NCBI GenBank assembly: GCA_933228675.1
Contig: OW121744.1
Span: 97,729,526 to 97,793,525 of the forward strand
Source: Stomorhina lunata
Taxonomy: Eukaryota; Arthropoda; Insecta; Diptera; Rhiniidae
Length of the DNA stretch: 64,000 nucleotides
Direction of reading: 5' to 3'
A model generated the notes under the pieces. It ran no database searches, had not been told where the DNA came from, and was given only the letters and a program-made list of their open reading frames with translations. A program made the translations under genes and the position numbers. This document shows positions 3,735 through 59,700 of this stretch, piece by piece; the stretch's first letter is position 1; the number at the start of each line of letters is the position of its first letter.

Positions 3735-5621
3735 TGTTCTAGTTCTGTTCTAGTTCTGTTCTAGTTGTGTTCTAGTTCTGTTCTAGTTCTGTTCTAGTTC
3801 TGTTCTAGTTCTGTTCTAGTTCTGTTCTAGTTCTGTTCTAGTTCTGTTCTAGTTCTGTTCTAGTTCTGTTCTAGTTCTGTTCTAGTTCTGTTCTAGTTCT
3901 GTTCTAGTTCTGTTCTAGTTCTGTTCTAGTTCTGTTCTAGTTCTGTTCTAGTTCTGTTCTAGTTCTGTTCTAGTTCTGTTCTAGTTCTGTTCTAGTTCTA
4001 TTCTAGTTCTGTTCTAGTTCTGTTCTAGTTCTGTTCTAGTTCTGTTCTAGTTCTGTTCTAGTTCTGTTCTAGTTCTGTTCTAGTTCTGTTCTAGTTCTGT
4101 TCTAGTTCTGTTCTAGTTCTGTTCTAGTTCTGTTCTAGTTCTGTTCTAGTTCTGTTCTAGTTCTGTTCTAGTTCTGTTCTAGTTCTGTTCTAGTTCTGTT
4201 CTAGTTCTGTTCTAGTTCTGTTCTAGTTCTGTTCTAGTTCTGTTCTAGTTCTGTTCTAGTTCTGTTCTAGTTCTGTTCTAGTTCTGTTCTAGTTCTGTTC
4301 TAGTTCTGTTCTAGTTCTGTTCTAGTTCTGTTCTAGTTCTGTTCTAGTTCTGTTCTAGTTCTGTTCTAGTTCTGTTCTAGTTCTGTTCTAGTTCTGTTCT
4401 AGTTCTGTTCTAGTTCTGTTCTAGTTCTGTTCTAGTTCTGTTCTAGTTCTGTTCTAGTTCTGTTCTAGTTCTGTTCTAGTTCTGTTCTAGTTCTGTTCTA
4501 GTTCTGTTCTAGTTCTGTTCTAGTTCTGTTCTAGTTCTGTTCTAGTTCTGTTCTAGTTCTGTTCTAGTTCTGTTCTAGTTCTGTTCTAGTTCTGTTCTAG
4601 TTCTGTTCTAGTTCTGTTCTAGTTCTGTTCTAGTTCTGTTCTAGTTCTGTTCTAGTTCTGTTCTAGTTCTGTTCTAGTTCTGTTCTAGTTCTGTTCTAGT
4701 TCTGTTCTAGTTCTGTTCTAGTTCTGTTCTAGTTCTGTTCTAGTTCTGTTCTAGTTCTGTTCTAGTTCTGTTCTAGTTCTGTTCTAGTTCTGTTCTAGTT
4801 CTGTTCTAGTTCTGTTCTAGTTCTGTTCTAGTTCTGTTCTAGTTCTGTTCTAGTTCTGTTCTAGTTCTGTTCTAGTTCTGTTCTAGTTCTGTTCTAGTTC
4901 TGTTCTAGTTCTGTTCTAGTTCTGTTCTAGTTCTGTTCTAGTTCTGTTCTAGTTCTGTTCTAGTTCTGTTCTAGTTCTGTTCTAGTTCTGTTCTAGTTCT
5001 GTTCTAGTTCTGTTCTAGTTCTGTTCTAGTTCTGTTCTAGTTCTGTTCTAGTTCTGTTCTAGTTCTGTTCTAGTTCTGTTCTAGTTCTGTTCTAGTTCTG
5101 TTCTAGTTCTGTTCTAGTTCTGTTCTAGTTCTGTTCTAGTTCTGTTCTAGTTCTGTTCTAGTTCTGTTCTAGTTCTGTTCTAGTTCTGTTCTAGTTCTGT
5201 TCTAGTTCTGTTCTAGTTCTGTTCTAGTTCTGTTCTAGTTCTGTTCTAGTTCTGTTCTAGTTCTGTTCTAGTTCTGTTCTAGTTCTGTTCTAGTTCTGTT
5301 CTAGTTCTGTTCTAGTTCTGTTCTAGTTCTGTTCTAGTTCTGTTCTAGTTCTGTTCTAGTTCTGTTCTAGTTCTGTTCTAGTTCTGTTCTAGTTCTGTTC
5401 TAGTTCTGTTCTAGTTCTGTTCTAGTTCTGTTCTAGTTCTGTTCTAGTTCTGTTCTAGTTCTGTTCTAGTTCTGTTCTAGTTCTGTTCTAGTTCTGTTCT
5501 AGTTCTGTTCTAGTTCTGTTCTAGTTCTGTTCTAGTTCTGTTCTAGTTCTGTTCTAGTTCTGTTCTAGTTCTGTTCAAGTTCTGTTCTAGTTCTGTGCTA
5601 GTTCTGTTCTAGTTCTGTTTC
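3735..5621. repeat. 11-bp satellite array, long copy (~171 units)
   Basis: Tandem TGTTCTAGTTC units, almost perfectly homogeneous. Rare variants cluster at both ends (about 3766, 3998, 5576, 5597), as expected if the core is renewed by unequal exchange or slippage. It lies downstream of the trypsin at 5689-6459 and upstream of the one at 2505-3275. The same array at 829-1326 is about four times shorter. Confidence 0.97.
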
Positions 5622-51028: not shown

Positions 51029-51541
51029 ATGTTCCGTTTCGTAACTCTATTGGCTCTTATTAGCTGTGCCTTAGCCGCCACCATCATGGTGTTGATACCA
51101 CCATTCAGGCTCATCCCTATCAGGTTTCATTGCAAACCAATAGTGGCTTCCATTTCTGTGGTGGTTCCATTATCAGCAAAGATATCATTGTTACCGCTGC
51201 TCACTGCATGCAAAAGTATACAGCCTCTCAATTTAAAGTACGTCTCGGATCTACTGAATACAATAATGGCGGTGAATTGGTTGCTGTTAAGTCCTTCAAA
51301 TTCCATGAGGGCTACAACAAGGAGACCATGATCAATGATGTTGCAGTTATCAAATTGGCTATTCCCGTACATGAATCTAACAAAATTCGTTATGTGAAAT
51401 TGGCTAAAAAGACTCCTGCTACTGGAACTCCTGCTGTTGTTACCGGCTGGGGCTCTAAATGTTTCTTGGTCTGCACCAAAGCTCCTCAGATTTTGCAAGA
51501 AGTTGAAGTTGATATTGTTGATCGGTCGGTTTGTGCTTCAT
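51029..51541 (+). pseudogene. Theta-like trypsin broken by deletion and by satellite
   Basis: Mirror copy of 36692-37456. It has a promoter (ATTATCTTTAAG at 50906, TATATAAA at 50981-50988) and a signal peptide start (MFRFVTLLALISCALAA). A 28-bp deletion near 51086 removes the activation site and shifts the frame. His57 and Asp102 regions follow in the shifted frame. At VCAS (51541) the homology ends and 31-bp-type satellite begins, so Asp189, Ser195 and the whole C-terminus are gone. Confidence 0.93.
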
Positions 51542-51589
51542 TTAGAAATAGAACCCAAAATTTGTCTATAGAAAAATATTTCTTTTCAA

Positions 51590-53970
51590 AATTTTTCTAA
51601 AGAAAAATGTTTCTTTTAAAAATTTTTCGATAGAAAAATATTTCTTTTGAAAATTTTTCTGTAGAAAAATATTTCTTTTGAAAATTTTTCTTTAGAAAAA
51701 TATTCTTTTGAAAATTTTTCCATAGAAAAATATTTCTTTTCTTTTCTATAGAAAAATATTTCTAACGAAAATTTTTCTATAGAAAAATATTTCTAACGAA
51801 AATTTTTCTATAGAAAAATATTTCTAACGAAAATTTTTCTATAGAAAAATATTTCTAACGAAAATTTTTCTATAGAAAAATATTTCTAACGAAAATTTTT
51901 CTATAGAAAAATATTTCTAACGAAAATTTTTCTATAGAAAAATATTTCTAACGAAAATTTTTCTATAGAAAAATATTTCTAACGAAAATTTTTCTATAGA
52001 AAAATATTTCTAACGAAAATTTTTCTATAGAAAAATATTTCTAACGAAAATTTTTCTATAGAAAAATATTTCTAACGAAAATTTTTCTATAGAAAAATAT
52101 TTCTAACGAAAATTTTTCTATAGAAAAATATTTCTAACGAAAATTTTTCTATAGAAAAATATTTCTAACGAAAATTTTTCTATAGAAAAATATTTCTAAC
52201 GAAAATTTTTCTATAGAAAAATATTTCTAACGAAAATTTTTCTATAGAAAAATATTTCTAACGAAAATTTTTCTATAGAAAAATATTTCTAACGAAAATT
52301 TTTCTATAGAAAAATATTTCTAACGAAAATTTTTCTATAGAAAAATATTTCTAACGAAAATTTTTCTATAGAAAAATATTTCTAACGAAAATTTTTCTAT
52401 AGAAAAATATTTCTAACGAAAATTTTTCTATAGAAAAATATTTCTAACGAAAATTTTTCTATAGAAAAATATTTCTAACGAAAATTTTTCTATAGAAAAA
52501 TATTTCTAACGAAAATTTTTCTATAGAAAAATATTTCTAACGAAAATTTTTCTATAGAAAAATATTTCTAACGAAAATTTTTCTATAGAAAAATATTTCT
52601 AACGAAAATTTTTCTATAGAAAAATATTTCTAACGAAAATTTTTCTATAGAAAAATATTTCTAACGAAAATTTTTCTATAGAAAAATATTTCTAACGAAA
52701 ATTTTTCTATAGAAAAATATTTCTAACGAAAATTTTTCTATAGAAAAATATTTCTAACGAAAATTTTTCTATAGAAAAATATTTCTAACGAAAATTTTTC
52801 TATAGAAAAATATTTCTAACGAAAATTTTTCTATAGAAAAATATTTCTAACGAAAATTTTTCTATAGAAAAATATTTCTAACGAAAATTTTTCTATAGAA
52901 AAATATTTCTAACGAAAATTTTTCTATAGAAAAATATTTCTAACGAAAATTTTTCTATAGAAAAATATTTCTAACGAAAATTTTTCTATAGAAAAATATT
53001 TCTAACGAAAATTTTTCTACAGAAAAATATTTCTAACGAAAATTTTTCTACAGAAAAATATTTCTAACGAATATTTTTCTATAGAAAAATATTTCCAACG
53101 AAAATTTTTCTATAGAAAAATATTTCTAACGAAAATTTTTCTATAGAAAAATATTTCTAACGAAAATTTTTCTATAGAAAAATATTTCTAACGAAAGTTT
53201 TTCTATAGAAAAATATTTCTAACGAAAATTTTTCTATAGAAAAATATTTCTAACGAAAATTTTTCCTTTGAAAAATATTTCTTTGGAACATTTTTCTATA
53301 GAAAAATATTTATTTTGAACATTTTTCTATAGAAAAATATTTCTTTTGAAAATTTTTCTATAGGAAAATATTTCTTTCGAAAATTTTTCTATAGAAATAT
53401 TTTTCTTTTGAAAATTTTTCTAAAGAAAAATATTTCTTTTGAAAATTTTTCTATAGAAAAATATTTCTTTTGAAAATTTTTCTATAGAAAAATATTTCTT
53501 TTGTAGATTTTTCTATAGAAAAATATTTCTTTTGTAGATTTTTCTATAGAAAAATATTTCTTTTGTAGATTTTTCTATAGAAAAATATTTCTTTTGTAGA
53601 TTTTTCTATAGAAAAATATTTCTTTTGTAGATTTTTCTATAGAAAAATATTTCTTTTGAAAATTATGCTATAGAATAATATTTCTTTTGAAAATTGTTCT
53701 ACAGAAAAATATTTCTTTTGAAAATTTTTCTACCGAAAAATATTTCTTTTAAAAATTTTCTATAGAAAAATATTTCTTTTAAAAATTTTTCTATAGAAAA
53801 ATATTTCTTTTGAAAACTTGTCTATAGCAAAGTATTTTTTTGAAAATCTTTCTATAGAAGAATATTTTTTTTTGAAAATTTTTTTATAGAAAAATATTGT
53901 TTTTGAAAATTTTCTGTAGAAAAATATTTCTTTTGAAAATTTTTCTATAGAAAAATATTCAAAAAATAAT
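51590..53970 (-). repeat. 31-bp satellite, reverse orientation (~77 units)
   Basis: Reverse complement of the unit at 19183-22762 (CTAACGAAAA then TTTTTCTATAGAAAAA). Homogeneous from about 51745 to 53265. Edges carry TTCTTTTGAAAA variants, and five units have TTTTGTAGA (about 53500-53640). Confidence 0.96.
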
Positions 53971-55344: not shown

Positions 55345-56210
55345 ATACAAAATATTTTTCTATAGAAAAATTTTCGATAGAAATATTTTTCTATAGGAAA
55401 AATTTCTATAGAAAAATTTTCTATAAAATTATTTTTTCAATAGAAAAATTTTATAAAAACAATATTTCTCTATAGAAAAATTTTCGATAGAAATATTCTT
55501 CTATAGAACATTTTTCGACAGAAATATTTTTCTATAGAAAATTTTTCGACAGAAATATTTTTCTATAGAAATATTTTAATATAGGTGCCACAAAGGCCAA
55601 ATTTTCGATAAAAATATTTTTCAATGGAAAAATTTTCAAAAGAAATATTTTTCTTTAGAAAAATTTTCAAAAGAAATATTTTTCTAAAGAAAAATTTTCA
55701 AAAGAAATATTTTTTTAAGGAAAAATTTTTAAAAGAACTATTTTTTTAAGGAAAAATTTTCAAAAGAAATATTTTTCTATAGAGAAATTTTTGTTAGAAA
55801 TATTTTTACATAGAAACATTTTAAAACGAAATATTTTTCTATAGAAAAATGTTCAAAAGGAATATTTTTTTATAGAAAAATTTTCAAAAGAAATATTTTT
55901 TTATAGAAAAATTTTCAAAAGAAATATTTTTCTACAGAAAAGTTGTCAAAAGAAATTTTTTTCTATAGAAAAGTTTTCGATAGAAATATTTTTCTATAGA
56001 AAAGTTTTCGATAGAAATATTTTTCTACAGAAAAATTTTCAATAGATATATTTTTCTATAGAAAAATTTTCGATAGCAGTAATTTTCTATAGAAAAATTT
56101 TCATCAGAAATAATTTTCTATAGAAAAATTTTCGATAGAAAAAATTTTCTATAGAAAAATTTTCGATAGAAAAAATTTTCTATAGAAAAATTTTCGATAG
56201 AAATAATTTT
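55345..56210 (+). repeat. Degenerate 31-bp satellite, left edge of the terminal array
   Basis: Units of the TTTTTCTATAGAAAAA type with many variants (TTTTCAAAAGAAATA, TTTTCGATAG). A short non-satellite stretch follows before the foldback at 56253. Confidence 0.9.
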
Positions 56211-56354
56211 ATTAAAAAGGTTTATCAAACTTTGGGACATCAAACATTTAATTAAAAAGTTTTACTGTAGTGTATTGCACTAAGAATCCCAATTTATTAC
56301 AATTATTTATTATTGTAATAAATAGTTTTTTGATAAAACCAAAAAATGTTGGTG

Positions 56355-56417
56355 GGGAAACCTTTCCTCGACGCGTTTCGATGGTTGGTTAGACCATCTC
56401 ATCAGGAGGATTATCCC
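56355..56417 (-). ncRNA. Hammerhead ribozyme motif, left arm
   Basis: Minus strand in order: stem I strand GGGA...TCCTC, core CTGATGA (56405-56399), stem II GATGG (56398-56394), 9-nt loop, CCATC (56384-56380), core GAAA (56379-56376), very short stem III within ACGCGT, cleavage triplet GTC (56372-56370), returning strand GAGGA...TCCC. Predicted cleavage is between 56370 and 56369. The only difference from the right-arm copy within the motif is in loop II. The short stem III is typical of retroelement hammerheads that work as dimers. Confidence 0.8.
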
Positions 56418-56628
56418 TAATTCTAGACAGAGCGAAAACCTCACATTATGTATAATTTGTGAGTGTGGGAAATAAAGAAATGATAAAACTGAAAAATGTT
56501 TGTGTGTTTCTGTTCGGATGATAATCTGCGCTTTATGTTGATATTTGTTGGACACAATAATAATAATTCCTATTTATTCAGTCCCTCAAATTATACATAA
56601 TGTGAGGTTTTCGCTCTGTCTAGAATTA

Positions 56629-56691
56629 GGGATAATCCTCCTGATGAGATGGTCTCACCAACCATCGAAACGCGTCGAGGAAAGGTTTCCC
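56629..56691 (+). ncRNA. Hammerhead ribozyme motif, right arm
   Basis: Stem I GGGA (56629-56632) and TCCTC (56636-56640); core CTGATGA (56641-56647); stem II GATGG (56648-56652), loop TCTCACCAA, CCATC (56662-56666); core GAAA (56667-56670); stem III CG/CG pairs in ACGCGT; GTC (56674-56676); GAGGA (56677-56681) and TCCC (56688-56691) close stem I. All conserved core positions are present. Predicted cleavage is after C56676. ACGCGT is self-complementary, so two copies in one RNA could form a stable shared stem III. Confidence 0.82.
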
Positions 56692-56796
56692 CACCAACAT
56701 TTTTTGGTTTTATCAAAAAACTATTTATTACAATAATAAATAATTGTAATAAATTGGGATTCTTAGTGCAATACACTACAGTAAAACTTTTTAGAA

Positions 56797-59700
56797 ATAA
56801 TTTTATATAGAAAAATTTTCGATAGAGATAATTTTCTATAGAAAAATTTTCGTTAGAAATATTTTTCTATAGAAAAATTTTCTACAGAAAAATTTTCGAT
56901 AGAAATAATTTTATATAGAAAAATTTTCGATAGAGATAATTTTCTATAGAAAAATTTTCGATAGAAATAATTTTCTATAGAAAAATTTTCAACAGAAATA
57001 ATTTTCTATAAAAAAAATTTCGATAGAAGCAATTTTCTATAGAAAAATTTTCGATAGAAATAATTTTCTATAGAAAAATTTTAGATAGAAATAATTTTCT
57101 ATAAAAAAATTTTCGATAGAAATAATTTTCTATACAAAATTTTCGTTAGAAATATTTTTCAATAGAAAAAGTTTCGTTAGAAATATTTTTCTATGGAAAA
57201 ATTTTCTTAAGAAATATTTTTCTATAGAAAAATTTTCGTTAGAAATATTTTTCTATAGAAAAATTTTCGTTAGAAATATTTTTCTATAGAAAAATTTTCG
57301 TTAGAAATATTTTTCTATAGAAAAATTTTCGTTAGAAATATTTTTCTATAGAAAAATTTTCGTTAGAAATATTTTTCTATAGAAAAATTTTCGTTAGAAA
57401 TATTTTTCTATAGAAAAATTTTCGTTAGAAATATTTTTCTATAGAAAAATTTTCGTTAGAAATATTTTTCTATAGAAAAATTTTCGTTAGAAATATTTTT
57501 CTATAGAAAAATTTTCGTTAGAAATATTTTTCTATAGAAAAATTTTCGTTAGAAATATTTTTCTATAGAAAAATTTTCGTTAGAAATATTTTTCTATAGA
57601 AAAATTTTCGTTAGAAATATTTTTCTATAGAAAAATTTTCGTTAGAAATATTTTTCTATTGAAAAATTTTCGTTAGAAATATTTTTCTATAGAAAAATTT
57701 TCGTTAGAAATATTTTTCTATAGAAAAATTTTCGTTAGAAATATTTTTCTATAGAAAAATTTTCGTTAGAAATATTTTTCTATAGAAAAATTTTCGTTAG
57801 AAATATTTTTCTATAGAAAAATTTTCGTTAGAAATATTTTTCTATAGAAAAATTTTCGTTAGAAATATTTTTCTATAGAAAAATTTTCGTTAAAAATATT
57901 TTTCTATAGAAAAATTTTCGTTAATAATATTTTTCTATAGAAAAATTTTCGTTAGAAATATTTTTCTATAGAAAAATTTTCGTTAGAAATATTTTTCTAT
58001 AGAAAAATTTTCGTTAGAAATATTTTTCTATAGAAAAATTTTCGTTAGAAATATTTTTCTTTAGAAAAATTTTCGTTAGAAATATTTTTCTTTAGAAAAA
58101 TTTTCGTTAGAAATATTTTTCTATAGAAAAATTTTCGTTAGAAATATTTTTCTATAGAAAAATTTTCGTTAGAAATATTTTTCTATAGAAAAATTTTCGT
58201 TAGAAATATTTTTCTATAGAAAAATTTTCGTTAGAAATATTTTTCTATAGAAAAATTTTCGTTAGAAATATTTTTCTATAGAAAAATTTTCGTTAGAAAT
58301 ATTTTTCTATAGAAAAATTTTCGTTAGAAATATTTTTCTATAGAAAAATTTTCGTTAGAAATATTTTTCTATAGAAAAATTTTCGTTAGAAATATTTTTC
58401 TATAGAAAAATTTTCGTTAGAAATATTTTTCTATAGAAAAATTTTCGTTAGAAATATTTTTCTATAGACAAATTTTCGTTAGAAATATTTTTCTATAGAA
58501 AAATTTTCGTTAGAAATATTTTTCTATAGAAAAATTTTCGTTAGAAATATTTTTCTATAGAAAAATTTTCGTTAGAAATATTTTTCTATAGAAAAATTTT
58601 CGTTAGAAATATTTTTCTATAGAAAAATTTTCGTTAGAAATATTTTTCTATAGAAAAATTTTCGATAGAAATATTTTTCTATAGAAAAATTTTCGTTAGA
58701 AATATTTTTCTATAGAAAAATTTTCGTTAGAAATATTTTTCTATAGAAAAATTTTCGTTAGAAATATTTTTCTATAGAAAAATTTTCGTTAGAAATATTT
58801 TTCTATAGAAAAATTTTCGTTAGAAATATTTTTCTATAGAAAAATTTTCGTTAGAAATATTTTTCTATAGAAAAATTTTAGTTAGAAATATTTTTCTATA
58901 GAAAAATTTTCGTTAGAAATATTTTTCTATAGAAAAATTTTCGTTAGAAATATTTTTCTATAGAAAAACTTTCGTTAGAAATATTTTTCTATAGAAAAAT
59001 TTCCGTTAGAAATATTTTTCTATAAAAAAATTTTCGTTAGAAATATTTTTCTATAAAAAAATTTTCGTTAGAAATATTTTTCTATAGAAAAATTTTCGTT
59101 AGAAATATTTTTCTATAGAAAAATTTTCGTTAGAAATATTTTTCTATAGAAAAATTTTCGTTAGAAATATTTTTCTATAGAAAAATTTTCGTTAGAAATA
59201 TTTTTCTATAGAAAAATTTTCTTTAGAAATATTTTTCTATAGAAAAATTTTCGTTGGAAATATTTTGCTATAGAAAAATTTTCGTTGGAAATATTTTGCT
59301 ATAGAAAAATTTTCGTTAGAAATATTTTGGTATAGAAAAATTTTCGTTAGAAATATTTTTCTATAGAAAAATTTTCGTTAGAAATATTTTTCTATAGAAA
59401 AATTTTCGATAGAAATAATTTTTTATAGAAAAATTTTCGATAGAAATAATTTTCTATAGAAAAATTTTCAACAGAAATAATTTTCTATATAAAAATTTTC
59501 GTTAGAAATATTTTTCTAAAGAAAAATTTTCGTTAGAAATATTTTTCTAAAGAAAAATTTTCGTTAGAAATATTTTTCTAAAGAAAAATTTTCGTTAGAA
59601 ATATTTTTCTAAAGAAAAATTTTCGTTAGAAATATTTTTCTAAAGAAAAATTTTCGTTAGAAATATTTTTCTAAAGAAAAATTTTCGTTAGAAATATTTT

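Follow-up and report, generated by a model that had tools for sequence, protein, structure and literature searches.

A hammerhead-bearing foldback in Stomorhina lunata satellite DNA as a probable single retrotransposition of a short non-coding Penelope-type element

Introduction

A 64,000-nucleotide stretch of the genome of the fly Stomorhina lunata, analysed here as a whole and referred to as the window, contains a long inverted repeat whose arms carry hammerhead ribozyme motifs in opposite orientation. What kind of element has this architecture, and by what event did it arrive? The hammerheads of Penelope-like elements (PLEs) were reportedly surveyed in 2014.

With regard to the PLEs themselves, their inverted pseudo-LTRs are arranged mostly head to head, one of them bearing a tail of 30-40 bp, and are accompanied by target duplications of 8-10 bp, according to excerpts of PMC3846280. 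It was also reported that purified PLE protein cuts both strands and extends them, and that reverse transcription begins internally, at sites bounding the tail, with no difference between the strands (PMC11167929).

Hammerhead motifs in the window

Two complete type I hammerheads with a minimal stem III are present, in opposite orientation and one per 207-nt arm (Table 1). A preliminary description of the locus had proposed two full inverted hammerheads with a minimal stem III like that of Penelope elements; the letters were rechecked and bear this out, and a strict hammerhead scanner agrees, matching the window in these two places only. When applied to first-order Markov resamplings of the window, the same scanner gave 1 match in 300. 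The two motifs represent one independent occurrence, because both arms are copies of the same element.

Both motifs comprise the type I core CUGANGA...GAAA...UH together with stems I and II. In the right arm, read on the plus strand, CTGATGA (56641-56647) is followed by stem II (GATGG...CCATC) and then by GAA. The minimal stem III is the palindrome ACGCGT (56670-56675), directly before the cleavage-site C (C56676), and stem I is composed of a proximal helix, UCCUC/GAGGA, and a distal one, GGGA/UCCC. The left arm is the mirror image of this motif on the minus strand. The variation between the arms that had been claimed for loop II is indeed located there and amounts to a single base (56390).

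At gathering scores, no Rfam family was above threshold in the window. At a relaxed E-value, Hammerhead_3 was the sole hammerhead family to appear, with scores of 15.6 and 15.5 bits where the cut-off is 48.5. The preliminary description had named the lack of a covariance-model match above threshold as a result that would speak against its hammerheads; such a match is lacking, but the curated Rfam library seems to contain no good model for this minimal-stem-III variant. RF00163 had no match across the genome, and the search's control matched nowhere either, so that this silence is uninformative. The best relaxed match of all, bicoid_3 over 56355-56691 (38.7 bits against a cut-off of 91), was attributed to the long hairpin and set aside as spurious.

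In a folding model without tertiary contacts, the 64-nt motif takes a non-hammerhead structure at its energy minimum (-18.6 kcal/mol), and the hammerhead fold (-15.8 kcal/mol) lies 2.8 kcal/mol above it. The z-scores of the two motifs folded in isolation, -1.19 and -1.62, are unremarkable. In addition, AACC in loop II is complementary to GGTT of the internal loop of stem I, with which it may be in contact; the right arm of the window deviates from AACC by one base.

Anatomy of the insertion

The inverted-repeat arms (56253-56459 and 56587-56793) are 207 nt long, lie 127 nt apart and have a total span of 541 bp. When the flanks are rejoined with a single copy of TAGAAATAATTTTAT, the phase of the 31-bp satellite is restored, and the foldback is a single insertion into this satellite with a 15-bp target-site duplication. 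The last bases of the left duplication also match the element end, which leaves the boundary uncertain by a few bases. The locus had been described as a foldback element beside a satellite; that description has to be replaced by one insertion into the satellite, consisting of two head-to-head retroelement copies and bounded by a target-site duplication.

Table 1. Features of the insertion, with positions in the window; unit positions refer to the 488-bp repeat unit
Feature	Position	Strand	Remark
Left target-site duplication TAGAAATAATTTTAT, 31-bp satellite sequence	56198..56212	.	shared by flanks
Left copy of the element (unit 1-252); outward-facing 3' end at site B, tailed	56208..56459	-	
Tail, ~40 nt, unit about 208-247	56213..56252	-	left arm only
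Left hammerhead (stem I, core, stem II, minimal stem III)	56355..56417	-	predicted cleavage after 56370
Sole difference between the arms	56390	.	loop II
Spacer: unit 364-488 preceded by 2 junction bases	56460..56586	+	right copy's sequence, missing from left copy
Right copy of the element (unit 364-488 followed by 1-207); outward-facing 3' end at site A, tailless	56462..56793	+	
Right hammerhead	56629..56691	+	predicted cleavage after C56676
Right target-site duplication TAGAAATAATTTTAT	56792..56806	.	overlaps element end by two bases

Each arm at the window holds sequence missing from the other, and therefore neither was copied from the other; a simple snap-back, tried as an explanation of this locus, is ruled out by these mutually unique arms. 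Because the inserted copies read through the predicted cleavage site, their templates would have been uncut or circular RNA.

Chemosensory receptor and trypsin genes are also present in the window. Like these genes, the named protein relatives, from Cochliomyia, Haematobia and Eurosta, point to a fly. A trypsin frame at 51064-51600 is without its C-terminal part and continues into the satellite; it is probably a pseudogene.

The 488-bp unit and its copies

With loop II and position 7 left free, the 728-Mb genome contains 3,523 exact occurrences of the motif, and 6,159 when up to two mismatches are permitted; the reversed-pattern controls gave 0 in both searches. A search for dispersed copies of the arm had been suggested at the outset, and such copies are found across the genome. 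On the other hand, no exact motif was found in viral and prokaryote contig collections.

In the arm search, the best 40 of 1,042 candidates were scored, 39 of them on contig C1, and these are young copies and a non-random sample of the family. The 33 loci fetched correspond to the 39 scored matches besides the window's own, all near-identical and on contig C1. Ends were counted in 35 insertions, from these 33 loci and the window, with diverged copies left out. At L025, two matching head-to-head insertions (3833-4271 and 4827-5265) lie 994 bp apart in the same satellite flanks; they are probably the product of a duplication through satellite expansion, and the second was not counted separately.

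Tandem loci define a unit of 488 bp. Among neighbours closer than 700 bp, 14 of 17 are spaced by 488-489 bp, and one arm at L009 passes through three hammerhead sites. The unit contains short reading frames only, and an open reading frame for reverse transcriptase and GIY-YIG endonuclease is not among them; the element is therefore non-autonomous at most.

Conservation of the hammerhead

Eight diverged copies were aligned, four of which form a clear sister subfamily, three were scored apart, and a second copy at L012 was left unscored. Compared with the left arm of the window, the four sister copies have no change in the 44 cells of the core (11 positions), 2 changes in 80 cells of the stems and 9 in 36 of loop II, against 179 in 606 (~30%) in the rest of the arm. 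By this alignment, the core and stems of the hammerhead are kept under divergence in the sister subfamily. As for the three copies scored apart, one of 11 core positions is changed in each of L012:2799-2913 and L019:7251-7518, and L018:5447-5772 has two of six core positions changed and five lost. Freely mutated core positions in genomic copies had been put forward as evidence that would count against the hammerheads; they are not seen in the sister subfamily, whereas the three other diverged copies are altered.

Across the 73 copies listed with their letters, loop II varies at its positions 1-2 and is almost invariant at its positions 4-9. Position 7 of the motif, outside loop II, is A in 54 of these copies and T in 19.

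Two 3' ends, head-to-head pairs and target-site duplications

In the 35 insertions, nearly all copies terminate at either of two sites or no more than about 11 nt away, and their 5' ends are variable. Site A (...AGTAAAACTTTTTA) is at unit position 207 and site B (...AAACCTTTTTA) at 247, a distance of 40 nt. The 25 single insertions comprise 10 that end at A, 14 at B (including L014, scored as B though three bases short of it) and one, L026, that ends elsewhere. In the ten head-to-head pairs, the 3' ends always point outward, and every pair combines one A end with one B end, those of the L035 pair being both a few bases short of their sites. A tail is accordingly carried by exactly one arm in 10/10 pairs. 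If the two ends were chosen independently at single-copy frequencies, ten mixed pairs in ten would have a probability of 0.0007.

The arms are mutually unique in three of the ten pairs (the window, L011 and L025), and in the remaining seven the A arm is nested within the B arm. Inner junctions have 0-6 bases of overlap or filler. Among the first 100 of the 3,523 places, hammerhead neighbours within 1.2 kb are oriented outward in 11 cases, inward in 1 and on the same strand in 5. No cDNA 5' end falls exactly at the predicted cleavage site (unit 90/91), a result of little weight in a sample preselected for full-length arms; two partner arms begin near it, at unit 95 and 98.

End words of at least 12 bp are shared in 13 of the 35 insertions, versus 2.7% of mismatched flank pairings. 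Words of at least 7 bases are shared in 43% of mismatched pairings, a satellite background too high for short duplications to be read. Duplication lengths differ between insertions, and in these satellite targets a duplication is resolvable at some of them, including the window, and not at every one.

Penelope-like elements in the same genome

A family search detected a PLE-like GIY-YIG domain in this genome, with 150 matches scored of 206 candidates, several of which lie within open frames of 830-864 aa. Among 141 merged places, PLE endonuclease neighbours within 6 kb are oriented outward in 25 cases, inward in none and on the same strand in 11, and this orientation is a genome-wide sign of head-to-head insertion. 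The corresponding counts for LINEs (69 scored of 23,395 candidates; one same-strand pair and no inverted pair within 6 kb, as judged by eye) are too sparse to serve as a control.

In one PLE family, which has a tandem spacing of 2,977 bp, a hammerhead-like motif is located 290-291 bp past the endonuclease match in 7/7 places. In the copy of this motif at L044 (G000:C11:74122430-74123030), stem III is formed by ACGT; the motif is rejected by the strict scanner and has an extra A before stem II. The start region of another PLE, L045, contains no CTGANGA at all.

The 488-bp unit has no similarity at E 0.01 to the two 601-bp PLE start regions (L044 and L045), and in L043 its best match, 19 bases long, reached E 0.048, the others being weaker. 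No PLE endonuclease was found within 6 kb of copies reading past the tail among the 100 places listed of 278, and no match to a PLE endonuclease query in L009-L041 or the window was below E 1.7. An autonomous PLE partner of the element was thus found neither at these 100 read-through places nor in the two start regions.

Discussion

The foldback is most likely the result of one retrotransposition of a short non-coding element of Penelope type, in which a PLE enzyme acted in trans, both strands were primed and the cDNAs were joined head to head. Briefly, a PLE-encoded GIY-YIG endonuclease/reverse transcriptase would make a staggered cut in the AT-rich satellite DNA, and on each target strand the exposed 3' end would prime reverse transcription inside the element RNA, one strand at B (with the tail) and the other at A, 40 nt upstream. 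Head-to-head joining of the two 5'-truncated cDNAs would follow, with an overlap or filler of 0-6 bases at the junction, and the 15-bp duplication would arise when the staggered cut was filled in. The conservation of the hammerhead suggests that it probably processes multimeric element RNA. More tentatively, and with slightly less than even confidence, the two priming events may be coupled, with one Penelope complex priming two strands at two fixed RNA sites, so that there is always one tail. The nesting of the A arm within the B arm in most pairs, the single inward hammerhead pair and the lack of an autonomous PLE at the places searched are points against the retrotransposition account. Strict pairing of A with B is also not predicted from the published biochemistry, since no difference in start site between the strands is seen in PMC11167929.

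Several features agree with what is known of endonuclease-bearing PLEs. Adineta vaga Pen2a and Anolis Poseidon PAc are alike in their head-to-head inverted copies, optional tail and duplications (excerpts of PMC3846280), and endonuclease PLEs share AT-rich targets and a hammerhead near the element start (PMC11167929). The A-B distance of the fly element matches the tail length given in the same excerpts of PMC3846280. The fly element differs from these PLEs in its 488-bp unit without a reverse transcriptase or endonuclease frame and in its thousands of copies; its strict rule of one A and one B end is not stated for PLEs in PMC11167929 or in the excerpts of PMC3846280. With regard to the minimal hammerheads of PLEs and terminons, stem III as a short palindrome is a common trait (excerpts of PMC7229834), ACGCGT in the fly element and ACGT at L044, and the complementarity of loop II to the stem I loop, with its possible contact, sets the fly element apart.

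Animal retrozymes provide the strongest competing account, although we regard it as rather unlikely. Here the hammerhead would cut multimers to give circles of ~488 nt, which would be copied around and inserted by the reverse transcriptase of a LINE or PLE. Short non-coding tandem repeats, type I hammerheads and target-site duplications (of more than 4 bp) are marks of the non-LTR retrozymes described in excerpts of PMC7229834, and they are shared by the fly element, whose regular unit spacing and L009 arm with three hammerhead sites fit such a cycle. The fly element departs from them in several respects: its hammerhead is of the minimal PLE kind, not the canonical retrozyme kind; its 488-bp unit exceeds the stated 170-400 nt; and both its tail and its head-to-head pairing are characteristic of PLEs. 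The two accounts also overlap, as the same excerpts name PLEs as a strong candidate mobiliser of retrozymes.

A second possibility, considerably less probable, is that the hammerhead is a decayed passenger that has no role and may not cut. The more stable non-hammerhead fold of the model would agree with this, as would the altered cores of three diverged copies; in addition, hammerhead mutants left insertion unaffected in vitro, where cutting needed protein (PMC11167929). A passenger would nevertheless be difficult to reconcile with a core that is unchanged in the four copies of the sister subfamily, where about 30% of the remaining arm sequence differs, and with the near fixation of loop II positions 4-9 next to variable positions 1-2.

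A slightly poorer prospect is self-priming on an antisense template, a published proposal for head-to-head Penelope copies (excerpt from the Discussion of PMC3846280), in which the end of the first arm folds back and primes the second. The seven nested pairs are what it would lead one to expect. It is contradicted at the window, one of the three pairs with mutually unique arms, and the outer ends differ in all ten pairs, lying at or near two standard sites, which arm copying alone does not yield. An ordinary foldback or MITE DNA transposon with a hammerhead by chance in its inverted repeats, for all its long terminal inverted repeats and spacer, is to be dismissed almost entirely, given duplications of variable length, arm ends that differ within a pair, some direct tandems and 25 one-directional insertions in 35 that stop at A or B on the 3' side and vary on the 5' side; these single 5'-truncated copies refute a DNA-transposon foldback.

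Significance

Among titles and abstract openings, mostly outside the subscription journals, neither the 488-bp family nor the rule of one A and one B end was found described, which is not proof of novelty. A very abundant class of hammerheads can be missed at Rfam thresholds. How PLEs integrate, and how their head-to-head copies originate, is an open question, and the thousands of short copies in this fly offer ends by which the proposals can be separated. The Penelope-type retrotransposition proposed here is relevant, too, to the suggestion, as yet unproven, that animal retrozymes are mobilised by PLEs. If coupled two-site priming were true, it would account for the tail on one of the inverted pseudo-LTRs reported in the excerpts of PMC3846280, and retrozyme-like RNAs would be shown to be inserted by Penelope machinery.
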